Shown here: positions 41,375-54,307 of the stretch, one piece after another
Layout of the letters: each line of letters starts with the position of its first letter
Position numbering within the stretch: position 1 is the stretch's first letter
Source of the DNA: Bacteroidota bacterium
GTDB lineage: Bacteria > Bacteroidota > Ignavibacteria > Palsa-1295
Assembly: GCA_018266755.1 (NCBI GenBank)
Contig: JAFDZW010000005.1
Location: 1,625,963 to 1,689,962 of the forward strand
Direction of reading: 5' to 3'
Length of the DNA: 64,000 nt
Position numbers and translations under genes: made by a program
Notes under the pieces: generated by a model
What the model saw: the letters and a program-made list of their open reading frames with translations, nothing else
The model's database searches: none
What the model was told of the DNA's origin: nothing

Positions 41375-42291
41375 GCAGCGATATCCGTCGCGGCTCGTTT
41401 CTGGTCATCCTGGCAGCATTGCTCTGGAGTACCGGTGGACTCTTCATCAAGTCAGTATCGATCGACGGCTACGGCGTGTCGTTGTGGCGAAGTTCGTTCG
41501 CTGCGCTGACGCTCTACGCGGTCTATCGCCGCGAATACCGATCACAGCTCGTCGCACATCGGTCGTTGTGGCTCAGCGGCCGTACACTGGTGATGGGCTT
41601 GGTCTATGCAGGGCTCCTGATCCTCTTCGTCCTGGCAACAAAGCATACCACGAGCGCAAACGCAATCTTCCTCCAATACACCGCACCGATCTACGTCTTG
41701 TTCTTCGAACCGATCATCTCGAAGACCAAGCTCAAGCGAACGGACATCCTGAGTGTTACGATTACGGTCGCAGCAATGGCCTTGTTCTTCGTTGGGAAGT
41801 TCGATACGTCGTCCGTGCTCGGCAATGTGCTCGCATTAGCTAGTGGGGTGTTCTTTGCGGCGTATGCATTGCTGCTCAAGCATGAGCAGACCGACGAGGC
41901 GATGCGGTGGCAATCGGTCATCGTGGGTCATGGTATCATCGTAGCGCTGAGCGCCATTATGTGGGCAACAGGCAACTCGAACCCAACCCCACAGAGTGCG
42001 ACCGAGGTTGCGGAGCTTGCATTTCTTGGCATCTTCCAGATCGGGTTAGCCTATACGCTGTTCACGAAGGGCATACACTACATTCGTGCGCTTGATGCAT
42101 TACTACTCTCGATGCTCGAGCCCGTACTGAATCCGGTGTGGGTATATTTCGGAATCGGCGAGACGCCGACGATCTACGCCATCGTCGGCGGACTGGTCAT
42201 ACTCTCGGTTTCTGCGTACCGAACGTGGAGCGAATCAGCGGCCGCCCAGGATCTCGATAATGTAGTAGGTACCGCCGGCGATCGCGGCTGA
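41371..42291 (+). CDS. EamA/DMT-family transporter
   Basis: A 306-residue inner-membrane protein with ten hydrophobic helices in two EamA halves. The first half starts GSFLVILAALLWSTGGLFIKSVSIDGYGVSLWRSSFAAL and includes TKHTTSANAIFLQYTAPIYVLFFEP. The second includes LGNVLALASGVFFAAYALLLKHEQ and ending LLSMLEPVLNPVWVYFGIGETPTIYAIVGGLVILSV. Drug/metabolite transporters of this type export amino acids, purines or other small solutes; the substrate is not predictable. The 3' end overlaps the convergent pit gene by 57 bp. Confidence 0.88.
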   Translation: MSSDIRRGSFLVILAALLWSTGGLFIKSVSIDGYGVSLWRSSFAALTLYAVYRREYRSQLVAHRSLWLSGRTLVMGLVYAGLLILFVLATKHTTSANAIFLQYTAPIYVLFFEPIISKTKLKRTDILSVTITVAAMALFFVGKFDTSSVLGNVLALASGVFFAAYALLLKHEQTDEAMRWQSVIVGHGIIVALSAIMWATGNSNPTPQSATEVAELAFLGIFQIGLAYTLFTKGIHYIRALDALLLSMLEPVLNPVWVYFGIGETPTIYAIVGGLVILSVSAYRTWSESAAAQDLDNVVGTAGDRG

Positions 42292-43227
42292 GGCCGGAAT
42301 CGTCAGCACCCATGCCCAAACAATACGCGTCGCAACGCCCCATCGCACTGCCGACGGGCGCTTCGTAGAACCGACACCGACGATGGCACCGGTAATGGTG
42401 TGGGTCGTCGAGACCGGAATGCCTGCAGCGGCAGAACCGAGGAGCGTGACCGCTGCTGCTGCTTCGGCCGAGAACCCACCGATCGGCTTTAAGGCCGTAA
42501 TGCGCATACCCATTGTCTTCACGATTCGCCATCCGCCGGAAAGCGTCCCGAGTCCGATCGCCGCATGCGCCGCAAGAATGACCCACATCGGGATATCGAA
42601 TGTCGGGATCAGTTTGTTCGCAAACAACACACCGGCAATGATACCCATCGTCTTCTGGGCGTCGTTCGTCCCGTGACCGAGTGAGTATGCCGCAGCACTA
42701 AAGAGCTGTCCCCGACGGAACCACTTGTCCACCGCAAACGGGGAGCGCTTGCGATTGAGCCACGACACCCCGACCATAATGAAGAACCCAAGCACCATCC
42801 CGATCAGCGGAGAAAGGACGATGAACAATAGTGTCTTGATCCAACCGCCGGCAATTATGACCGAGAGCGTACCGGCCTTTGCAACTGCCGCACCGGCATA
42901 GCCGCCAATGAGCGCATGCGACGAGCTCGTCGGCAAGCCGAACCACCACGTCAACAGATCCCAGACGATCGCGCCAGCCAAACCGGCAAGGATGACATAC
43001 GACGTCACGACGGAGATGTCGATCATCCCCGAGCCGATCGTCTTTGCAACACCGGTCCCGAAGCCGAACGCGGCGACGAAGTTAAAGAATGCCGCCCACA
43101 GCACCGCTTGACCGGGAGTGAGCACGCGCGTTGATACAACTGTGGCGATCGAGTTCGCGGCATCGTGGAAGCCGTTGATGTAGTCGAAGCACAGAGCGAT
43201 CGCAATGACAATAATGACGAGCGTCAT
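42235..43227 (-). CDS. pit: Low-affinity inorganic phosphate transporter, Pit family
   Basis: A 330-residue polytopic PiT (PF01384) transporter, driven by H+ or Na+ and moving metal-phosphate. The two signature repeats are visible: CFDYINGFHDAANSIATVVSTRVLTP near the N-terminus and YSLGHGTNDAQKTMGIIAGVLFA in the middle. GLPTSSSHALIGGYAGAAV and GIPVSTTHTITGAIVGVGS are their second halves. ATG 43227 is used, since the longer frame to 43296 runs through the DUF47 intergenic space. The DUF47 accessory gene lies 17 bp upstream on the same strand, the standard Pit partner. Confidence 0.93.
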   Translation of the reverse strand: MTLVIIVIAIALCFDYINGFHDAANSIATVVSTRVLTPGQAVLWAAFFNFVAAFGFGTGVAKTIGSGMIDISVVTSYVILAGLAGAIVWDLLTWWFGLPTSSSHALIGGYAGAAVAKAGTLSVIIAGGWIKTLLFIVLSPLIGMVLGFFIMVGVSWLNRKRSPFAVDKWFRRGQLFSAAAYSLGHGTNDAQKTMGIIAGVLFANKLIPTFDIPMWVILAAHAAIGLGTLSGGWRIVKTMGMRITALKPIGGFSAEAAAAVTLLGSAAAGIPVSTTHTITGAIVGVGSTKRPSAVRWGVATRIVWAWVLTIPASAAIAGGTYYIIEILGGR

Positions 43228-43244
43228 ACGTACCTCGGATCGGA

Positions 43245-43898
43245 TTAGGCGTACTTGATGACGACGGTTTCGATCAGGTTGGCCACATGCTCGCACTTAT
43301 CGATGGCCTCTTCGATATCGCTCAGGATTTCCTTGAGCTTGATGAGCATGATCGGATCTTTCTGTTCGCGGAAGAGCCGTGCGATGGCATTATGGTAAAT
43401 GTCGTCGCCTGCGTTCTCGCAGGTATTGATGTGTTCGCATAGCGACTTGATCGTATCGACATGCTCGCTGCGAAGATCGGACAGCAGAGGCACGACCGTC
43501 CCGAGATCCTTCACCGCCATCAAGAGCGTATCGGTGAGGTCGCGGAAGTCGTTCGGGAATGTGTTCACCTCATACAATACCGTACGAAGCGCGACGTCCT
43601 CCATGAGGTCGAGGATATCGTCGAGTCGTGCGGCAAGCGCATGAATATCTTCGCGGTCGATCGGCGTGATGAACGTCTGCGAGACGTCGTTGAAGATCTC
43701 ATGGGTGATCAGGTCGCCGCGATGTTCGGCATCCTCGATCTGCGAGATCAGAACCTTTCGCTCCGATTCACTTTGCGCATCGAGAAGCTTACGCAAGTTT
43801 TCCGCTGCCGATTGAATGTTGCCAACATTCGTGGTGAACAGATCGAAGAACCGGTTCTCCTTGGGCAGGAGCTTTCTGATGAACGACGAGAATGCCAT
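43245..43898 (-). CDS. DUF47 (PhoU-like) Pit accessory protein
   Basis: A 217-residue cytoplasmic all-helical protein of the DUF47/phosphate-transport-regulator family. Starting FSSFIRKLLPKENRFFDLFTTNVGNIQSAAENLRKLL, it keeps the PhoU-like signatures IEDAEHRGDLITHEIFNDVSQTFITPIDREDIHALAARLDDILDLMED and CENAGDDIYHNAIARLF. These proteins control the Pit transporter encoded next to them. TTACCA (43924-43929) and TTACCT (43935-43940), spaced 11 bp, lie just upstream; this is a weak match to the Pho-box pattern of the neighbouring porin genes. Confidence 0.92.
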   Translation of the reverse strand: MAFSSFIRKLLPKENRFFDLFTTNVGNIQSAAENLRKLLDAQSESERKVLISQIEDAEHRGDLITHEIFNDVSQTFITPIDREDIHALAARLDDILDLMEDVALRTVLYEVNTFPNDFRDLTDTLLMAVKDLGTVVPLLSDLRSEHVDTIKSLCEHINTCENAGDDIYHNAIARLFREQKDPIMLIKLKEILSDIEEAIDKCEHVANLIETVVIKYA

Positions 43899-43974
43899 AT
43901 ATTAAGAAATTGCAAGAGAAGTATTACCACAAAATTACCTCATTTCACGGCCAACTGCAAGAAAACGGCAATAA

Positions 43975-44023: not shown

Positions 44024-44728
44024 CTATTCAGAACGGTCGGTTACCGTCTCCTGCGATTGATGTTTGAGCATTCGAGCCTCGACGATAAAGATTACGTCCT
44101 CGGCGATATTTGTCGCATGGTCGGCAAGCCGCTCGACATGGCGCAGCAACCCCATCGCATGTGCGCCCGGCTCGACGAGCAACGGGTCGGATTTCATCTC
44201 GGTGATCAGGAGGTCGAAGGCACGGTGAGCAATCTTATCGATAGATGCCTCGCGCTCGAAAAGCGAGCGTGCGAGATCGACATCGCTATTGATGAACGAA
44301 TCGAACGCGAAGCGAAACATCCGATGCGATTCCTGTAGCATCGTCTTCAGACCGACTCGATCGAGCAGGTCGTAATAGCCGTCGAGCACCGATGCGCGCT
44401 CGGCGATATTGACGGCGATATCGCCGATGCGCTCGAATTCGGAGTCAAGCCGCATCGCTGCGATCAGTGTGCGCAGATCGGTCGCGACCGGTTGCGTGAG
44501 TGCGAGGATACGCTGGCAGAGCGCATCGACCATCAAATCGTACTCGTTCACGCGAGCCTCGCGTTTGACAACGAATCGTGCGGCCTCTTCTTCTGCCGTC
44601 AGCACGGCCTGTGTCGCCAGTTCGATCTGTTCGTCGACAAGCGACCCCATGCGAATGAGGAGTGCGCGTAGTTTTGCGATCTCGTCTTCGAAATGTCGAT
44701 GGATACGGGGTGTTTGAATATTCTCCAT
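44024..44728 (-). CDS. phoU: Phosphate signalling regulator PhoU
   Basis: A 234-residue protein (239 from an ATG at 44743) with two three-helix PhoU domains. Signatures are RHFEDEIAKLRALLIRMGSLVDEQIELATQAVLTA...EYDLMVDALCQRILALTQPVATDLRTLIAAMRLDSEFERIGDIAVNIAER, and in the second half MGLLRHVERLADHATNIAEDVIFIVEA, with the E-x-x-x-D metal-cluster motifs. It links the Pst transporter to the PhoR sensor kinase and shuts down the Pho response when phosphate is ample. It is the last gene of the pst operon. phoR and phoB are not in this window. Confidence 0.95.
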   Translation of the reverse strand: MENIQTPRIHRHFEDEIAKLRALLIRMGSLVDEQIELATQAVLTAEEEAARFVVKREARVNEYDLMVDALCQRILALTQPVATDLRTLIAAMRLDSEFERIGDIAVNIAERASVLDGYYDLLDRVGLKTMLQESHRMFRFAFDSFINSDVDLARSLFEREASIDKIAHRAFDLLITEMKSDPLLVEPGAHAMGLLRHVERLADHATNIAEDVIFIVEARMLKHQSQETVTDRSE

Positions 44729-44735
44729 AATGGTA

Positions 44736-45581
<846 letters not shown>

Positions 45582-45601: not shown

Positions 45602-46561
45602 TCAGCCATGTTGTGCGTTGCTGCGAATGCGCGAGCGAAGCACGACGGCGATAATATTTAGCGAGAACGTGAGCCCCAAGAGCACAAGCGTCGTCGCATA
45701 TTGCAGCGGGATCGTCTTATCGACGTTCGCCGACTGTGTTGCAAGCACGTAGATATGATATCCGAGGTGCATGAACTGCTGTGAGAGCGCATGCGGCACT
45801 TCCGGCAGGAAGAACGCTGCACCGGTAAACAAAATTGGTGCAACTTCGCCGGCACCTCGGCTGATCGCGAGGATCATACCGGTGAGAATACCGGAAAGCG
45901 AACTCGGGATCACGATCTTTCTGATGGTCTGCATCCGCGTTGCCCCGAGTGCGAGCGACGCATCTCGCCAATCGCGCGGCACCGTACGGATCGCTTCTTC
46001 GACCGAGACGATTACTACCGGCATCGTGAGCAGCCCCATCGTCATCGACGCCCATAGAATGTTGGGTTGCCCCCAGACGAGCGTCCCTGGGTTCGCGACG
46101 GAGTCGATCCCCTTCCCGATAAACTGAACGAAGAAGCCGAGACCGAAGAGGCCGAACACGATCGATGGGATCGACGCAAGCGTATTGACCGCAAAGCGAA
46201 TCGCTCGCGCAAAGATCGACGTCGGACTCGCAAATTCGGAGAGATAGATTGCCGTGATCGTCCCGAGCGGAACGGCCATCACGGACATGAGCAGTGTCAT
46301 GAGCACCGTACCGACGATCGCAGGGAAAATACCGCCTTCCATCATCCCTTCGCGCGGAGCCTGCGTGAGGAATTCCCACGAGAGCGTGCTCCAACCGCCG
46401 ATGACGATGGAGACGACGATTGTCACGACAATCGCAACGATCACGAGCGCAGCCGCGCCCGTCACTCCGCCTGCCAGGCTGCCCGCCACACGCTTGCGCA
46501 GCGAATCCTGACCGAGCAGACTACCGCCCCTGGATGCGTTTAATGAGACGCTTACGGACAT
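45602..46561 (-). CDS. pstA: Phosphate ABC transporter permease PstA
   Basis: A 319-residue inner-membrane permease with six or so helices and the MetI-like fold. Conserved PstA segments include [65 protein letters not shown], the EAA-like loop [55 protein letters not shown], and [13 protein letters not shown]. Its start overlaps the end of pstC by 41 nt, so the two are almost certainly translated from one mRNA. Confidence 0.96.
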
Positions 46562-48083
46562 AGAATTCTACAAGTGCATTGAGTGAAAATGTAAACACGA
46601 ACAGCAAAGCGCCGATCAAAAAGAGTACTGTGTAGTGCTGATCGCCGAAGACGACCTCTGCCATTTCCGCGCCGATGGTCGCTGCAAACGTACGAATCGG
46701 CTCGAACGGGTTGGCACTCGTGATCGATGCATTTCCGGTTGCCATGAGCGCGATCATTGTTTCGCCGAATGCTCGGCCAAACCCGAGAATGATCGCAGCG
46801 AATACACCGGGAATCGCCGACGGCAAGACTACACGAAATGCGGTCTGCCATTTCGATGCCCCCAGCGCCGTGCTTGCATCGCGCAGTGCCTGCGGAACGG
46901 CCGTCAGCGCATCTTCGCTGATCGTGTAGATGATCGGGATGATCGCAAAACTCATCGCGATGCCACCGACAAATGCGTTGAGCCGGAATTGATATCCGAA
47001 CGCATCCTGCAGCAGCGTTGCCATCACCATCAACGCAAAGAAACCGACGACCACACTCGGAAAGCCGGCCAATAGTTCGATCACCGGCTTCAATATTTCG
47101 CGTGCCCATTTGGGGGCGAAGGTGCTCGTAAAAAGTGCAGCGAGGATCGCAAGCGGGGCCCCGAACAGAATCGAAAGAAGCGTTACTTTCAGCGTACCGA
47201 CAAACAACGGGACGAAACCGAACTTCGGTACCGTCGAGACCGGCTGCCAGATATCTCCGAAGAATAGCGACGAAAAGGTTGTCGCTTCCTCTTTTGCGAT
47301 CGAATCGCGGCGTTCGCGAGCGACCGCACTATCGGCCTCGATCTTCGCTTGCGCCAGCGAGAGCGAATCGACGCCACTCACACCGACCGGGCCACTGGCG
47401 ACGGAGTCTTTCTTCTGAACCTGTGATCCTTTCTGCCCCGGAATCGAGGGTATCCCCTTCTCGTCGGCAAAAGGATCGAAGACTTCCTGCTCGACCTGAC
47501 CGCCTTCTGTAGTAGTATATACTTTCTCTGGTGAATGTACTGACGTGTCACTTTTCGATGTTGCAGCAACAGGCTGCTTCTTCTTTTTTACAGGAGCCTT
47601 CGCTACAGTATCGCTAACTAATGGCTTGCTCGGAAGCACTTCTTCCTTCGGTTTCTCTGCCGGCGAGCTGTCATCCGCAAGCGGATCATAGACCTCTTGT
47701 TCGACCGCGCCGCCGTTCTTCGTCAGCTTGACCTTCTTACCGCTGGCATCTTCTTTGATTGCAATATCGGTCCCTTTGATGCCTTCTTTTGATTTGATCA
47801 CGCCGACCGTTTTCATCTGCGCGAACGTCGTATCGGTCGAAGCGGATACGGAGATGGGAGCAGTGTTCCTATGGGCGGAAGTGTCTGTCGCAACGACTGG
47901 CGCGTCGGGTTTGGACTTGCCGAAGAAGATCGGCGACGCTTCCTTAAATACAAACACGAAGATCAGGATGATCGCCGCGAATGAAACGAAGGCGAGTATC
48001 CTGATCAGGTTCTCTGCAATTAGCTCGCCGATGCGTCGGCGTTTGCCAAGCGTCAGCGGAGTCGTTGGTTGTTGTGGTGACAT
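46521..48083 (-). CDS. pstC: Phosphate ABC transporter permease PstC with large low-complexity insert
   Basis: The protein has 520 residues, about 200 longer than typical PstC. Residues 20-57 form the first helix (NLIRILAFVSFAAIILIFVFVF) and the start of the conserved region. The usual domain resumes at about 270 with FFGDIWQPVSTVPKFGFVPLFVGTLKVTLLS, then ELLAGFPSVVVGFFALMVMATLL and the EAA-like ALRDASTALGASKWQTAFRVVLPSAIPGVFAAIILGFGRAFGETMIALMATGN. Between them lies a polar, Lys/Ser/Asp-rich stretch containing two near-identical motifs, EQEVYDPLAD (128-137) and EQEVFDPFAD (198-207), 70 residues apart. By topology this insert sits in the first periplasmic loop. Otherwise it is a standard Pst permease. 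Confidence 0.93.
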   Translation of the reverse strand: MSPQQPTTPLTLGKRRRIGELIAENLIRILAFVSFAAIILIFVFVFKEASPIFFGKSKPDAPVVATDTSAHRNTAPISVSASTDTTFAQMKTVGVIKSKEGIKGTDIAIKEDASGKKVKLTKNGGAVEQEVYDPLADDSSPAEKPKEEVLPSKPLVSDTVAKAPVKKKKQPVAATSKSDTSVHSPEKVYTTTEGGQVEQEVFDPFADEKGIPSIPGQKGSQVQKKDSVASGPVGVSGVDSLSLAQAKIEADSAVARERRDSIAKEEATTFSSLFFGDIWQPVSTVPKFGFVPLFVGTLKVTLLSILFGAPLAILAALFTSTFAPKWAREILKPVIELLAGFPSVVVGFFALMVMATLLQDAFGYQFRLNAFVGGIAMSFAIIPIIYTISEDALTAVPQALRDASTALGASKWQTAFRVVLPSAIPGVFAAIILGFGRAFGETMIALMATGNASITSANPFEPIRTFAATIGAEMAEVVFGDQHYTVLFLIGALLFVFTFSLNALVEFYVRKRLIKRIQGR

Positions 48084-48194: not shown

Positions 48195-49046
48195 TTAGCG
48201 AACCGGGAAGAACCCTTCGTTCTTCACGACAGCCTGTCCCTCCGATCCGAGGATCCAGGTGATATACTCCTTCAGTGCACCCGTCGGCTTCTGGCGGAGG
48301 TAGATGTAGAGGAAGCGTGTAATCGGATAATTGCCGCTCTTCACGTTCTCTTCGGTCGGCTTATATGCTTGGCCGCCATCGTACATCTTTACACCGCATT
48401 CTTTGATCCCTTTTGCATACCCAGCGCCGCCGTAGCCGATACCGTTTACGTCCTTCTTCACAGCGTTCACGACCGCTGCCGTACCCGGAAGCGTCTGCAC
48501 ACTGGAGGCATAGTCGGCATCGTTGAGTACGCGCTCTTTGAAGAACGAGTACGTACCCGAGCTATTCTCGCGACCATATAGGATGATCGGAGCATCTGCG
48601 CCGCCGACTTCTTTCCAGTTCTTGATTGCACCGGTGAAGATCCCTTTGAGCTGCGAGAAGCTCAGTTCATTGACACCGTTTGCTTCGTTGAGATACACCG
48701 TGAGGCCGTCCTTTGCAGTGCGAACTTCGATACCGGTCGAGCCGTAACGCTCACGAAGTTTCAGCTTCTCGGCATCCTTCATCGGTCGCGAAGCGTCACA
48801 AACGTCGATCGTGCCGTTGATCAGTGCGCTGATGCCCGTACCCGAGCCACCGCCGTTGACCTGAATATTCACTTCGGGATGTGCCTTCATATATTTTTCG
48901 GCCCACCGTTGCGCGAGCTGCACCATCGTGTCGGATCCCTTCACGGTGATCGTCTCGGCCGAAACCGATGCGAACCCGAAGACCGACGTAAGCAGGCAGA
49001 TCGCGACTGCGAGCTTCATCGTAAGATTTGATCTGAAAGAGTTCAT
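48195..49046 (-). CDS. pstS: Phosphate ABC transporter substrate-binding protein PstS
   Basis: A 283-residue periplasmic binding protein. The signal peptide is MNSFRSNLTMKLAVAICLLTSVFGFASVSA, with cleavage near SAE. PstS signatures are ITVKGSDTMVQLAQRWAEKYMKAHPEVNIQVNGGGSGTGISALINGTIDVCDASRPMKD, VYLNEANGVNELSFSQLKGIFTGAIKNWKEVGG, ILYGRENSSGTYSFFKERVL and GIGYGGAGYAKGIK. It captures phosphate and delivers it to PstCA. It lies 38 bp downstream of the porin gene 49085-50668, so the two probably share the Pho-box promoter. Confidence 0.97.
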   Translation of the reverse strand: MNSFRSNLTMKLAVAICLLTSVFGFASVSAETITVKGSDTMVQLAQRWAEKYMKAHPEVNIQVNGGGSGTGISALINGTIDVCDASRPMKDAEKLKLRERYGSTGIEVRTAKDGLTVYLNEANGVNELSFSQLKGIFTGAIKNWKEVGGADAPIILYGRENSSGTYSFFKERVLNDADYASSVQTLPGTAAVVNAVKKDVNGIGYGGAGYAKGIKECGVKMYDGGQAYKPTEENVKSGNYPITRFLYIYLRQKPTGALKEYITWILGSEGQAVVKNEGFFPVR

Positions 49047-49084: not shown

Positions 49085-50668
49085 TTAGAACTTGTACTGC
49101 ATGCGGAATGTGAAGCGATCGTCATGCGCATCGGCAACCGTCGCAACCACCGGCGCGGAGCTCGTGCCGCCGTTCTTCGTGAATTGTTCTGTGGTGGGAT
49201 GATCGTAATCGAACATCAGGCGCATCGAACCCGAGACGAACACGTTCAGATCGACCGAAATCGTATTGACGGCGAGGTCGCCGCCGAAGCCGGAACTGGC
49301 AGACACTCCGCGAAGCGACGAACCCTTACCACTCCCGTCGATCGAGAAGAAATCGGTGCCTTTCACCTTGGTATTCGGATCGAACATCTCATAGCGAACC
49401 GCAAGCTGCAACTCGTCCGAGAGGTTCTGCACGAGCATCGCATAGAAACCCATGACGTTCTTGTAGATCGTCGATGCGATCGGGTCGCCAAGCGCCGTGT
49501 AATCTGCCGAGGTAAAGAGTTTTGCCGAACCGTAGAACGGTGTCTGGCCGGAGTAGAACTCGGTCTTGACGATCGTACCGCCGATCGGAAGCACCGAGAG
49601 ATAGAACTGCGCATCGGCACCGATGATCGAACGGTTTGTCGGCAGGAATGTGTGGTTCTGGTTGTTGAAAGTATGATTGCCATACTTGCCCTCGTTCGAA
49701 AGTACGAGCGCACCGTTTGTGCCTTCGTACTTGCCGATTACCTGCGACGGCTCGGTGATACCACCCATCGAGATGGAGCCCCCGATGTCGAAGCTGAACT
49801 CGTCGCTAAGGAGAAACGGCACACGGAAATGCCCGATGAGCTCCTTGCCCGGCTGGCCGATCGGCGAGCCGGTGGTACCGCCCGGAAGGCCGCCCTGTGT
49901 AGCCAACTGCAATCCCGTTTCTTTTGCAACGGCTGCGTTCGTCTTTACCTGAAAGAGCGAGTCAGCGCCGGCTGGTACAGCATACGTGCCTTGGCCGATC
50001 GGGGCCGAGGTGAAGCCCATCTTGTTATTCGCTCCCGGAAGCGCACCCGAGGGGCCCGTACCGAAATTATCCGTGCCGTTGAAGATGCCGAGTTCGATAA
50101 GCGGCTTAATACCTCCGAGATTCGGAGCGTATGCGACCTGCAAACCGAGATCGCGCTCGCCGTTAAAGAAGCGATTCTCGAAGAGCGAACGCTCCGTAAC
50201 TTCGCGGGCGCTCGAGGAGTAGGCAATTTCATAACCGAATGGGCGGTTCATCGCGCCCATCGAGACCGTCAACTCCTTCGTTGCAAACCAGTCGGCGAAG
50301 ACTTCCTTCATGACAACGCCGTTCTCCGTGATATCGGGATAGAGCGTATAGCCGATGCTGCCGGTCTTGTGAACAAACTTCACTCGACCACGACGGATCG
50401 TGAACGCGTTGCGGCTATTTACCTGGCTGCCGAGCGAATCGACATCCTGCCATTGCCACTGCGGTTGAATATACCCGGAGATCTTGAGCTTCGAGAGACC
50501 GCTGACGGTATTCTCCAGCTCGGTCACACGGTCGGTAACGCCGTCGACTTTGCCTTCGAGCGTGGATATCTTTTCGTCCTGTGCCGAAGCGTTATAGACT
50601 CCGACTGTCGAAACGAATGCAAGAAGAAAGAACAGTCTCATCCAGAGACGGGGTAAAGAGGTAGTCAT
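49085..50668 (-). CDS. Phosphate-selective porin (OprP/OprO-like) of the pst operon
   Basis: A 527-residue outer-membrane protein. The signal peptide ends NASAQ. A short coiled coil (EKISTLEGKVDGVTDRVTELENTVSGL) follows, probably for trimerisation or periplasmic contact. The barrel starts SGYIQPQWQWQDVDSL, includes FTIRRGRVKFVHKTGSIGYTLYPDITENGVVMKEVFADW and MNRPFGYEIAYSSSAREVTERSLFENRFFNGERDLGLQVAY, as in phosphate-selective porin O/P (PF07396), and ends FTFRMQYKF with a terminal Phe. It should let phosphate across the outer membrane. It is first in the pst operon and preceded by a four-unit Pho box. Confidence 0.85.
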   Translation of the reverse strand: MTTSLPRLWMRLFFLLAFVSTVGVYNASAQDEKISTLEGKVDGVTDRVTELENTVSGLSKLKISGYIQPQWQWQDVDSLGSQVNSRNAFTIRRGRVKFVHKTGSIGYTLYPDITENGVVMKEVFADWFATKELTVSMGAMNRPFGYEIAYSSSAREVTERSLFENRFFNGERDLGLQVAYAPNLGGIKPLIELGIFNGTDNFGTGPSGALPGANNKMGFTSAPIGQGTYAVPAGADSLFQVKTNAAVAKETGLQLATQGGLPGGTTGSPIGQPGKELIGHFRVPFLLSDEFSFDIGGSISMGGITEPSQVIGKYEGTNGALVLSNEGKYGNHTFNNQNHTFLPTNRSIIGADAQFYLSVLPIGGTIVKTEFYSGQTPFYGSAKLFTSADYTALGDPIASTIYKNVMGFYAMLVQNLSDELQLAVRYEMFDPNTKVKGTDFFSIDGSGKGSSLRGVSASSGFGGDLAVNTISVDLNVFVSGSMRLMFDYDHPTTEQFTKNGGTSSAPVVATVADAHDDRFTFRMQYKF

Positions 50669-50709: not shown

Positions 50710-50767
50710 CAAAAATCGCAGACCGGGGTTGCGAGAGAATTACAGAACCATTACTAAATTATTAAAT
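50710..50767 (-). promoter_or_regulatory. Candidate Pho box plus -7 element before porin-pst operon
   Basis: Read on the plus strand, TTGCGA (50729), TTACAG (50740), TTACTA (50751) and TTAAAT (50762) start exactly 11 bp apart. CAAAAATC at 50710-50717, i.e. GATTTTTG on the coding strand, is a -7-like element 11 nt from the nearest unit and 42-49 nt before the ATG. The layout is the same as at 52619-52676. Confidence 0.65.
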
Positions 50768-50798
50768 AGCAAACGATACCGCAATAACCTGTTGATAA

Positions 50799-51260
50799 TC
50801 AATGAATTGCGATCGGCATAACCGCTTTGGAATCGGAGAGAATTTTTACGGTCGAAATGTCGGTCACCGATACGGATGCCTGGGCGTGGTTCAGAAGTTC
50901 GTAGCCCGTCCAGCGTTTCCCGCCGCCGATGCTAACGTCATTGTCTTCTACTTTTATGGTCTGGAGGTAGAACCGGTAGGTCGTCCCGTAGATATCGCGG
51001 ACTTCGATCTTCGTCTTGGCATCGACCGCTAACCGATAAAATCTTCCCGACTCATCCACCACCGGGATGCTCGTAATGCTCTGCCCATCGTAGGTCCAAC
51101 GGGTAGAATCGGGGTTGTTGCGTTGTCGCTCTGCGTCGTTCGGGAGGCGGTAGGTATAGATCGTCTGACAGCCGCTCGAGAACATGACAAACACGAATGC
51201 AATCACCGCAGCAACACTGATGCTGCGTCTGGGCTGAACGATATCGTGCGCTGTGTTCAT
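50799..51260 (-). CDS. Putative lipoprotein of unknown function
   Basis: A 153-residue protein. The hydrophobic N-terminus VAAVIAFVFVMFSSGC ends in a lipobox with Cys near residue 31. The mature part is strand-rich (TYRLPNDAERQRNN, GRFYRLAVDAKTKIEVRDIYGTTYRFYLQTIKVEDNDVSIGGG) and may form a small beta-barrel or SH3-like fold. It lies between the two porin genes on the same strand, so a phosphate-linked role is possible but unsupported. A strong terminator separates it from the upstream porin-like gene. Confidence 0.6.
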   Translation of the reverse strand: MNTAHDIVQPRRSISVAAVIAFVFVMFSSGCQTIYTYRLPNDAERQRNNPDSTRWTYDGQSITSIPVVDESGRFYRLAVDAKTKIEVRDIYGTTYRFYLQTIKVEDNDVSIGGGKRWTGYELLNHAQASVSVTDISTVKILSDSKAVMPIAIH

Positions 51261-51334
51261 CGGCTCAAGGAAAGCGATGGAAGGGACGCATCAGTTCCGA
51301 GACAACACGAAGTTAATACACCCATAATACGCGG

Positions 51335-51371
51335 CGTCGTCCTGAACCCCACAAGTGGGTACAGGACGACG
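51335..51371 (-). terminator. Terminator after porin-like gene 51436-52572
   Basis: CGTCGTCCTG (51335-51344) pairs with CAGGACGACG (51362-51371), and CCCAC/GTGGG pairs inside, with a small internal loop. It stands 65 bp past the stop codon on the minus strand. Confidence 0.75.
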
Positions 51372-51435
51372 AGCTCCATTCGCGTGATTATTCGTTTCTG
51401 GGAGGACGATCCGCGCGACGATTCCTCGGTCGCTG

Positions 51436-52572
51436 TTAGAACTTATAGAAACACGTCACGCGCGGGACGATATCGGCATCCGATTCGACCTTGCCGCTAA
51501 CGTTCGGCAGCTTGCTCGAATAGCCGGTGTACCAGAGGTTCGGCATGATGTGTACGTTTGTGACCGGCGTCCAGTCAAGACCGGCAACGATGAAGTTCTC
51601 CTTCGTCGTCGACGACTTTACATAAGTCGGCTGGTAGCCGATGCCGGTCTGTTCGTAGTTCTGATCGGGATTGAACATGTCGTAGCGAGCGAAGAAGTTC
51701 AGCTTCTTCTCGATGATGTTGCCCGTCACGTAGAACGAGAGACCGAATTTCTTCTGGTCAAGATTCGCTTTCGCAATCGTATCGACAACCGCATTCCCGA
51801 GCGTCTGGATGAATCCTTCAACGCCGATAGTCAGCGGAGCGGTCGCATAGGCTACGAAGAATTTCATTGTGCTATTGTCCTTCGGCAGCTCGGACTTGCG
51901 CTCAAGGTCGCCATAGACATTGACAATAAGCTTCTTGTCCATGAACTTGGCCCACAAGTCGCCATAGACACGCTTGTAGCGATCGTTCTCCGGCGCAGCG
52001 CCGGTGCCGTTCGCGTACATGATGTCGTATCCATAATTCTTATCGTCGGTAAACGAACCGCGCAGGCCAACACCGACGTCGTTCGATCCGGCGATGCCGT
52101 TCTTATCGAGCAATGTTTTCTCGACCGAGCGGTAACCCCAAACGCCTTCGCTCAGGAGAGCAAAGCTCGGCGTCGCTTGAGCGCCGAAGACCGCCGTCGC
52201 ATTCGAGAAGATATTCTTCCACTGAATGTTCGCTAACTTCACATACACGGTGCGCTTACCGCTTGCATCGTTATTGCCTTCGTATGCAAGCAAAAACTCC
52301 GTCGTGAAATCGGGTGAGATGTCGTAGTTGTACCCGAGATAGACGCGCCGAACCTCGAAATTCGAGTAATCCTTTGGGACGCCGGCCCCGGAATACTGAT
52401 TCGAGCCACGACCGAGCGAATCGGCATGTACCTTATAATAATAATCGGAAAAGAACTGAGCACTGAATTTGCCGGACGGCTTGAATGCGGAATCGGATTG
52501 CGCAAAGCCCGTGCCCCGCACGCCGACCAGCAAAATCACCGCCGCGGCTGCGATGTAGAAGTACTGTTTCAT
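51436..52572 (-). CDS. Porin-like outer-membrane protein with its own Pho box
   Basis: A 378-residue protein. The signal peptide ends GTGFAQ. The mature part alternates amphipathic strands and turns: GKFSAQFFSDYYYKVHADSLGRGSNQYSG, FEVRRVYLGYNYDISPDFTTEFLLAYEG, TVYVKLANIQWKN, VGVGLRGSFTDDKNYGYDIMYANGTG. It ends RVTCFYKF with a C-terminal Phe. This is a 16-strand-type porin, probably for anions, though no named family is obvious. A candidate Pho box upstream with the same geometry as that of the pst operon points to a phosphate-starvation porin. It has its own terminator. Confidence 0.72.
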   Translation of the reverse strand: MKQYFYIAAAAVILLVGVRGTGFAQSDSAFKPSGKFSAQFFSDYYYKVHADSLGRGSNQYSGAGVPKDYSNFEVRRVYLGYNYDISPDFTTEFLLAYEGNNDASGKRTVYVKLANIQWKNIFSNATAVFGAQATPSFALLSEGVWGYRSVEKTLLDKNGIAGSNDVGVGLRGSFTDDKNYGYDIMYANGTGAAPENDRYKRVYGDLWAKFMDKKLIVNVYGDLERKSELPKDNSTMKFFVAYATAPLTIGVEGFIQTLGNAVVDTIAKANLDQKKFGLSFYVTGNIIEKKLNFFARYDMFNPDQNYEQTGIGYQPTYVKSSTTKENFIVAGLDWTPVTNVHIMPNLWYTGYSSKLPNVSGKVESDADIVPRVTCFYKF

Positions 52573-52618
52573 GAGATAGTGAGTAATTTCAGATAGAACG
52601 TGTGTGAATGCACGCCTA

Positions 52619-52676
52619 CAAAAATCACAGTTGGACGTTACGTAGCATTTATGGGAACATTACGTCACTATTAACT
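52619..52676 (-). promoter_or_regulatory. Candidate Pho box plus -7 element before porin-like gene
   Basis: TTACGT (52638), TTATGG (52649), TTACGT (52660) and TTAACT (52671) start exactly 11 bp apart on the plus strand. CAAAAATC at 52619-52626 (GATTTTTG on the coding strand) is 11 nt from the nearest unit and 47-54 nt before the ATG. Confidence 0.65.
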
Positions 52677-52721: not shown

Positions 52722-53045
52722 TTATCTACTTCGGGCCTCGATGGTGCCAACTGCCCGAATCTGAACACGAAAGCCATCGATCGACGTCGGCAATTGCTTG
52801 CGAATCGCGGGCGTATTGCGTTCAACGAAAATAACGACGCATGGCTTCCCATGCAGACGGCCTTCCCCGGTGCCGGTGACGCCGGGTATTTTCATCCATC
52901 GGTCCGTATTGCGCGCAAGCACTTCGGTGATGGTCATCGACTTCTTGGATTGAGTATGAGTTACAGCAGAATCACGGCGCACAGTCGAGTCGCCCCGGGC
53001 ATGACCGAGTTGGAGCGAGAGTAGGAGGAATAGAAATACATTCAT
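52722..53045 (-). CDS. Small exported protein related to N-terminal domain of neighbouring protease
   Basis: The protein has 107 residues from ATG 53045. The signal peptide is MNVFLFLLLSLQLGHARG. After a short linker, residues 53-104 (IPGVTGTGEGRLHGKPCVVIFVERN...LPTSIDGFRVQIRAVGTIEA) match the layout of residues 71-120 in the NAL1-like protease encoded next door (LPSVVGAGVGVNDDGSPAIVVFA...VPQNIEGVRTRTEYVGEVRA). It is thus a free-standing copy of what looks like that protease's propeptide-like domain. A longer frame to 53168 enters repeat DNA and is rejected. It may modulate the protease; that is inference. Confidence 0.62.
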   Translation of the reverse strand: MNVFLFLLLSLQLGHARGDSTVRRDSAVTHTQSKKSMTITEVLARNTDRWMKIPGVTGTGEGRLHGKPCVVIFVERNTPAIRKQLPTSIDGFRVQIRAVGTIEARSR

Positions 53046-53126
53046 GCAAAAAACAACAGAGGGGCATCGAAAACGATGCCCCTCTGTATTCGGTTGGTGG
53101 TTACGATTTAAACGGCGTACAATGCT

Positions 53127-53208
53127 GTCATTCTGAGCGAAGCGAAAATCCCTGTGGCGGATCCTCACTGCGTTTCATTAAGGGATTCTTCGCTTCGCTC
53201 AGAATGAC
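53127..53208. repeat. Palindromic repeat family A, complete copy
   Basis: The left arm is GTCATTCTGAGCGAAGCGAA, and the right arm is GATTCTTCGCTTCGCTCAGA ending ATGAC. The arms are almost perfect inverted copies. The centre reads CTGTGGCGGATCCTCACTGC then GTTTCATTAAG. It is the best-preserved copy in the window and lies between the small exported gene and the protease gene. Confidence 0.92.
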
Positions 53209-53269: not shown

Positions 53270-54298
53270 TTAGAACGGCACGACGCTCACACCGAACGAG
53301 ATGAGCACACTCGTGATCGGATTGCCGAACGTACCGCTCGAACCACCGGCAAACAGCAGTGCCACCGGATCGTTCGACGATGCCTCGACGATCAGCGAGC
53401 CGGAATCGCCTGCAGCGCTGAACGTGCCGGGCGTTACATACACCTGGTTGATGAAGCGAGCCGTTCCATGTGAGTATTGCACATTGATCGTGACGTTCAC
53501 CGCGCTGACCGTCCCACCGGTCAACCCGGTAGTACGCCCGGTCTTTTTCACCGTCATGCCGACAGTTGCATTCCGTGCATTCGTCGTCGGCGTGTACGAA
53601 CTAAGAGCCATCTGGCTTGTCGGGTTGATGCCGGACCCAATATTGGCGATTGCGCAATCAACCACATTGCTTGCATTACGCTTCATCACGATCTTCACGA
53701 AGCTATTGAGCGTGCCGACCTGTCCGGACGGACCGCAATTGAACTCATACCGACCTGGCTGATCGATCTTTTCACCGATCTTCGCGCTATTCTCGCGGGC
53801 GAATACATGGTTGTTGCTCAGCAAGTAGAACGTATTGTTCACGTTGTTCTTGACAACGCAGCCGATCGTCCCGGCAGCGCACTCATTATCGTTGCCAACG
53901 CTCACTCCGCTCCACATCGGAGCACGATACGTGCCGGTGAATTGTAGTGCACGTACTTCGCCGACATACTCCGTTCGGGTGCGCACACCTTCGATGTTCT
54001 GCGGAACGCCACGAACACCGTGATCGCTAGCGAACACGACAATCGCGGGCGAGCCGTCGTCGTTGACACCGACACCGGCGCCGACAACGCTTGGAAGTGC
54101 GAGTAATTCATCTTCGTGACGGGCTTTAATATCCGTCACACGATCGACATCCGCTTGGGGTAATTGGATGTGTGCTGCCATCGGCTGCACAGACGACGGA
54201 TTCTGGCCGTCACCATTCGGCGTATTACATCCGCCGAGCATAGACGCGAGCATCATAACGGCGACGAGCGCCGATGCTCTGAACGAACGTGATTTCAT
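53270..54298 (-). CDS. NAL1-like trypsin-fold serine protease, lipoprotein
   Basis: 342 residues from ATG 54298 (345 from 54307). The signal ends ASMLGGC, a lipobox. Numbered from the longer start, residues 71-120 are a small domain also found alone at 52722-53045. The trypsin-like part carries His167 in LLSNNHVFA, Asp217 in VVDCAIANI and Ser302 in FSAAGDSGS, a full catalytic triad. Further blocks are VKKTGRTTGLTGGTVSAVNVTI and DPVALLFAGGSSGTFGNPI, as in NARROW LEAF 1-type proteases and related bacterial peptidases. It should act on the outer face of a membrane; substrate unknown. Confidence 0.8.
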   Translation of the reverse strand: MKSRSFRASALVAVMMLASMLGGCNTPNGDGQNPSSVQPMAAHIQLPQADVDRVTDIKARHEDELLALPSVVGAGVGVNDDGSPAIVVFASDHGVRGVPQNIEGVRTRTEYVGEVRALQFTGTYRAPMWSGVSVGNDNECAAGTIGCVVKNNVNNTFYLLSNNHVFARENSAKIGEKIDQPGRYEFNCGPSGQVGTLNSFVKIVMKRNASNVVDCAIANIGSGINPTSQMALSSYTPTTNARNATVGMTVKKTGRTTGLTGGTVSAVNVTINVQYSHGTARFINQVYVTPGTFSAAGDSGSLIVEASSNDPVALLFAGGSSGTFGNPITSVLISFGVSVVPF

Positions 54299-54307
54299 TA
54301 GGGTCAT

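Follow-up and report, generated by a model that had tools for sequence, protein, structure and literature searches.

The PhoP box of Bacillus subtilis is built of TT(A/T)ACA units, and regulators of the OmpR family generally bind tandem repeats. In the general format of Pho boxes, 11-nt units follow one another head to tail (PMC4415409); the box of Escherichia coli PhoB, whose regulon comprises pst, porin and phosphatase genes, is arranged in this way and overlaps the -35 position (PMC3616915). In the SphR box of cyanobacteria, CTTAACCT, 8 bp are combined with a 3-bp linker, and three or more units occur (PMC1906773). Among the Bacteroidota, a DAP-seq motif TTTAACA has been reported for PhoP of Riemerella anatipestifer, a virulence regulator with hundreds of peaks whose motif was likened to that of ArcA; neither a four-unit architecture nor a fixed distance to the -7 element is described in the accessible part of that report (PMC9603813). 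PhoB of Bacteroides fragilis binds the pstC promoter in EMSA and is needed for pst induction, with no box sequence defined in the accessible part of the article (PMC3547664). In Flavobacterium johnsoniae, low phosphate induces TonB transporters, lipoproteins, phosphatases and the PhoX locus, in a paper which describes no box and contains zero occurrences of the terms "pho box" and "promoter" (PMC8115612).

The window analysed here, a stretch of 64,000 nt (G000:C5:1625963-1689962) from a 3.55-Mb genome, harbours two sites which we read, with a probability of roughly 0.9, as Pho boxes, operators of the PhoB type, each joined to a Bacteroidota-type promoter for the primary sigma factor. They resemble the E. 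coli box in their head-to-tail 11-nt units, in their location over the place of the -35 element and in the pst, porin and phosphatase genes of the regulon; however, the core is TTAAC/TAAT here and CTGTCAT in E. coli, and up to four units are combined with the Bacteroidota -7 element TAnnTTTG. The SphR box has a nearly identical core (CTTAAC), the same 11-bp period and several units, but belongs to another phylum and another promoter core and differs in the downstream half of the unit. TTAACA-like units spaced at ~11 bp are shared with the B. subtilis box as well, whereas phylum and sigma factor are not. The motif given for Riemerella PhoP has the same core and comes from the same phylum; the PhoB-bound pst promoter of B. 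fragilis belongs to this phylum as well, and the Pho regulon of F. johnsoniae comprises the same kinds of genes as those found behind the boxes here.

Both putative boxes lie on the minus strand and consist of four 11-bp units. Box 1 (50722..50765), before porin1-pst, reads TTAATAATTTA GTAATGGTTCT GTAATTCTCTC GCAACCCCGGT, with the coding-strand cores TAAT/TAAT/TAAT/CAAC, the last unit being weaker; box 2 (52631..52674), before porin2, reads TTAATAGTGAC GTAATGTTCCC ATAAATGCTAC GTAACGTCCAA, with the cores TAAT/TAAT/TAAA/TAAC. For the triplets TAA/TAA/TAA/CAA of porin1 and TAA/TAA/TAA/TAA of porin2, the distances to the TTTG end of the -7 element are 55, 44, 33 and 22 nt. An earlier note on this DNA had placed TT starts on the plus strand at 50729/50740/50751/50762 and 52638/52649/52660/52671; all of these coordinates are exact, and the exact 11-bp period with four units per promoter, which it had also claimed, is seen at both sites on the coding strand. 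As the pattern was picked by eye in that first reading, a chance arrangement in two AT-rich intergenic regions has to be considered, and bare TT at 11 bp is indeed unexceptional, TT quadruples being found at other periods of the window too. Hence it is the TAA core that counts. The window holds three TAA triples at period 11, all within boxes 1 and 2, whereas the remaining fixed periods between 5 and 18 yield zero; when both intergenic regions were resampled by a first-order Markov procedure that keeps their dinucleotide steps, three or more triples arose in 0 of 2000 runs (mean 0.008). Given this rarity and the conservation in relatives presented below, the latter already refuting chance, the probability of a coincidence is practically negligible.

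The -7 element of both promoters is GATTTTTG, located at 50710..50717 before porin1-pst and at 52619..52626 before porin2 (minus strand). It was indeed found on the coding strand, running from 50717 to 50710 and from 52626 to 52619, where the earlier reading had put it; the 11-nt gap to the nearest hexamer is exact in both promoters, and 42 and 47 nt separate the last base of the element from the first base of the ATG, within the claimed range of 42-54 nt. With the TTTG taken to end at -5 (PMC9723704), the predicted transcription starts fall at ~50705 and ~52614, leaving leaders of ~37 and ~42 nt, respectively. In this phylum the primary sigma factor uses TAnnTTTG, at -12 to -5, as its -7 element (PMC9723704); GATTTTTG departs from it by one mismatch, T to G. 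Of the 45 other box-linked sites, 39 have T as the first base and 6 have C; G was seen nowhere but in the two promoters of the window and in that of a candidate RNA of one relative (G004, see below). The idea that a modified -7 is the form of the whole lineage was thus rejected: relatives use TAnnTTTG, and GATTTTTG is a local one-base departure.

A TTTG near -33 is known from B. fragilis (PMC7366714); TTG near this position is missing in 41 of the 45 sites with a -7 element. In box-linked sites, TAA positions cluster at 22, 33, 44 and 55 nt from the TTTG end, the last-unit TAA being 22 nt away in the window and in relatives alike. Since TTTG ends at -5, the boxes would cover approximately -60 to -17 and overlap the -33 place; they take up the position of the upstream core element of the promoter, and their distance from the -7 is fixed. 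As TTG near -33 is missing in nearly all of these sites, it is fair to infer that the promoters are activator-dependent, and the geometry of the boxes suggests that activation would occur by contact with sigma. A GATTTTTG to TATTTTTG change that raised the uninduced activity would fit such dependence.

The genes behind the boxes, all on the minus strand, are largely those of phosphate uptake. Box 1 precedes porin1 (49085..50668), a member of the phosphate-selective porin O/P family (PF07396, E 8.4e-9) and the first gene of the pst operon, which continues with pstS (48195..49046; PF12849, TIGR02136 above cut-off), pstC (46521..48083; PF00528), pstA (45602..46561; assigned as an ORF by position), pstB (44736..45581; an ORF with ATP-binding motifs and a tentative start codon) and phoU (44024..44743; PF01895). 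Further downstream lie genes for a PhoU_div (DUF47) protein (43245..43898; PF01865) and a Pit-type phosphate transporter (42235..43296; PF01384), preceded at 43919..43942 by two degenerate units, TAATTTTGTGG TAATACTT. This stretch is the third best match of the window to the box model (E 0.53), and the orthologous PhoU_div gene carries stronger boxes in G002 and G006; it is possibly a third Pho box, a suggestion made with low confidence. Between porin2 and porin1, a putative lipoprotein of 153 aa (50799..51260) is encoded, which has a hydrophobic N-terminus with a cysteine (SGC) and no Pfam match.

Box 2 precedes porin2 (51436..52572), a beta-barrel porin of 378 aa assigned through its homologues and predicted structure. 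The protein itself matches no Pfam family, PF07396 included, and a sequence profile search against the PDB found no relative; 2 of its 15 homologues match PF07396, and among the many porins that its predicted fold (mean pLDDT 78) matches are trimeric ones such as OprP (2o4v, E 6.7e-11) and OprO. In genus g3 (G003, G007, G008, G010, G012) the porin2 orthologue adjoins or sits between pstS-like genes, and porin2 is therefore assigned to phosphate uptake on genomic grounds too. Upstream of porin2, two neighbouring proteins (53270-54307 and 52722-53168, minus strand) resemble each other in one stretch (LPSVVGAGVG / IPGVTGTGEG), and the longer one looks secreted and trypsin-like. Elsewhere in the genome, a second pstA/pstC-like set (G000:C5:484185-489942; L196 7186-12943) lies downstream of SusC/SusD-like genes and showed no Pho-box match.

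The named relatives of the organism are metagenome assemblies of Ignavibacteriae and 'Candidatus Kapaibacterium'. In related genomes, the four units are kept upstream of the porin/pst orthologues, with neither the 11-bp period nor the distance to the -7 altered. Four 11-bp units with 22 nt to the -7 end were found before porin1 in G001, G009 and G006 and before porin2 in G002. A matrix made from these sites and those of the window revealed more sites before porin1 (G034, G025), porin2 (G007, G008, G010) and a TonB transporter-pstS pair (G005); in G012 and G003 the spacing, judged by eye, is one base longer. At 35 Bacteroidota-type pstS loci, period 11 yielded 110 TAA triples and 37 quadruples, whereas the other periods gave 10-46 and 0-5, respectively. 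The pstS loci of Verrucomicrobia and Myxococcota, which are G+C-richer (0.61 vs 0.40), contained no TAA triples of period 11. In a phylum-wide search with a strict threshold, the box was present in 9 of 24 genomes of the class and in 3 of 75 outside it, so that its exact form is not claimed for the phylum, looser matches being found at pstS loci of Flavobacterium, Porphyromonas and Chitinophagaceae.

These counts also bear on the possibility that the TAA periodicity is no operator but a helical-phase A-tract of strong promoters, acting by curvature or in the manner of an UP element, as AT-rich units roughly in helix phase upstream of a -7 might suggest. The period, however, is 11 and not 10 (110 vs 15 triples at the Bacteroidota-type loci), the spacers between the TTAAC cores of the units vary, and the genome has few such sites, most of them before phosphate genes, which leaves this explanation very improbable.

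For the genome-wide search, a sequence-only model was built from ten sites of relatives, the window's own sites being excluded. Its E-values are rough, and some training sites had been found with the matrix containing the window's sites, a mild circularity that does not touch the period counts of TAA triples, which are independent of the model and its training set. Six matches at E up to 10 were obtained in the whole genome: the porin2 box ranked first (E 4.6e-5), followed by a site at C5:1313793 that faces no ORF (E 1.6e-4), a site at C5:1154321 before a Metallophos lipoprotein, i.e. a metallophosphoesterase (E 2.1e-4), the porin1-pst box in fourth place (E 9.2e-3; 1.7e-4 in the window alone), and sites before a PF04185 phosphoesterase (C5:1532413, E 0.05) and polyphosphate kinase (C11:54513, E 0.36). 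At E up to 0.1, matches were present in 29 of 41 genomes (its own and 40 relatives), where the boxed genes code for porins, pstS, pstB, PhoU_div, PhoX/phytase-like proteins, PhoD, phosphoesterases and TonB-dependent transporters, as well as for a PhoB-like DNA-binding domain, a glycosyltransferase and large surface proteins. The large surface proteins of L227 and L235 (G001, G005) share a type of N-terminal repeat and are perhaps comparable to the lipoproteins induced by low phosphate in F. johnsoniae.

Three OmpR-type response regulators are encoded in the genome: a PhoB-like one beside a PhoR-like kinase, and two CopR-like ones of the heavy-metal type. The best family of the first (G000:C1:64227-64940) is PhoB, although it does not reach the NCBIfam curated cut-offs (246 vs 296; 241 vs 270); the kinase that follows it is PhoR/PnpS-like, the nearest solved relative of the regulator by sequence is RegX3, and the genome holds one such PhoB-PhoR pair. 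Five genomes show linkage of a PhoB orthologue to boxed genes: in G011 the orthologue is divergent from a boxed pstB, in G021 it directly precedes a boxed TonB-transporter-like gene, and in G033, G035 and G014 it shares a contig with a boxed pst cluster. Of the 33 genomes that are at least 95% complete, 24 encode a PhoB with 54% identity or more; boxes are present in 20 of these and in 2 of the 9 others (Fisher p 0.002, an optimistic value, the genomes being related). The tandem binding common to OmpR-family members, together with the presence of two more of them, raises the question of whether the repeats might bind another regulator, e.g. a CopR-like one, with the phosphate link being secondary. 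This is unlikely, as both group with heavy-metal regulators, while across the class the genes that carry boxes are phosphate genes and it is the PhoB orthologue that shows linkage to them.

The assignment of the repeats to PhoB/PhoP-type sites, proposed at the outset, is thus supported by the units conserved before porin/pst orthologues and by the same element at other phosphate genes. From these sequence data we infer binding by PhoB, activation and a phosphate response at the boxes. When phosphate is scarce, the single PhoR-like kinase of the genome would phosphorylate PhoB (G000:C1:64227-64940), monomers of which would occupy the four 11-bp TTAAY-type units head to tail from about -60 to -17, stand in for the absent -33 element and bring polymerase to the -7 GATTTTTG. 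As a result, the two outer-membrane porins, the Pst transporter and PhoU would be produced together.

The box match at C5:1313793, to which no ORF corresponds, is followed on the plus strand by a candidate small RNA at G000:C5 ~1313852-1314010; the whole stretch of box and RNA, G000:C5:1313793-1314010 (L189 5794-6011; L260), lies between an anti-sigma-kinase-like pair and a gene starting MALQIKTFRI. A box with a -7 occupies the same interval in G001, G002, G006, G007 and G009 according to the model, in G004 by eye and, with poorer units, in G008, and the site is syntenic in at least 7, probably 8, of the 13 genomes of the family, the genome of the window included. G003, G010, G011 and G012 lack it, their interval being closed up, and it did not turn up in G005. 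From the predicted start, a conserved, unstructured 5' part, GAC(GC)ACAAC...CTCACC, leads to a strong 3' hairpin, after which most genomes have a T run. In a class-wide pattern search, the sequence core proved to be single-copy in its place and confined to the family, non-syntenic matches remaining at the background level of the reversed pattern, and no Rfam family matched credibly. That the conserved ATGACAAGAAGGACAACGATCGA stretch is coding was judged unlikely, a one-base deletion in G002 (by eye) breaking the frame. The ORF-less box thus probably drives a small RNA ended by a terminator. We lean, somewhat less firmly, towards an undescribed RNA of the family under a Pho-box promoter, through which PhoB activation would also extend to the post-transcriptional level. 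PhoB-induced small RNAs are known elsewhere, namely in the control of rpoS in E. coli (cited in PMC8829014), so a PhoB-controlled RNA here would be a new family and no new principle.

The sequence comparisons support well the view that the box is a known kind of operator with a classical mechanism, apparently undescribed for this lineage. The literature search found no Pho box for Kapabacteria or Ignavibacteria, an absence which is no proof, and to this extent the claim of novelty for the lineage stands. It does not extend to the phylum, where TTTAACA is known for Riemerella PhoP (PMC9603813), and with this motif already reported the box is new at most for the class. With this finding, phosphate control in the Kapabacteria-type lineage around the genome studied has an operator sequence that can be put to the test. 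It would allow the phosphate regulon, with its porins, phosphoesterases, polyphosphate kinase and TonB transporters, to be read straight from genomes, and it points to a family-wide candidate small RNA that may be under the same control.
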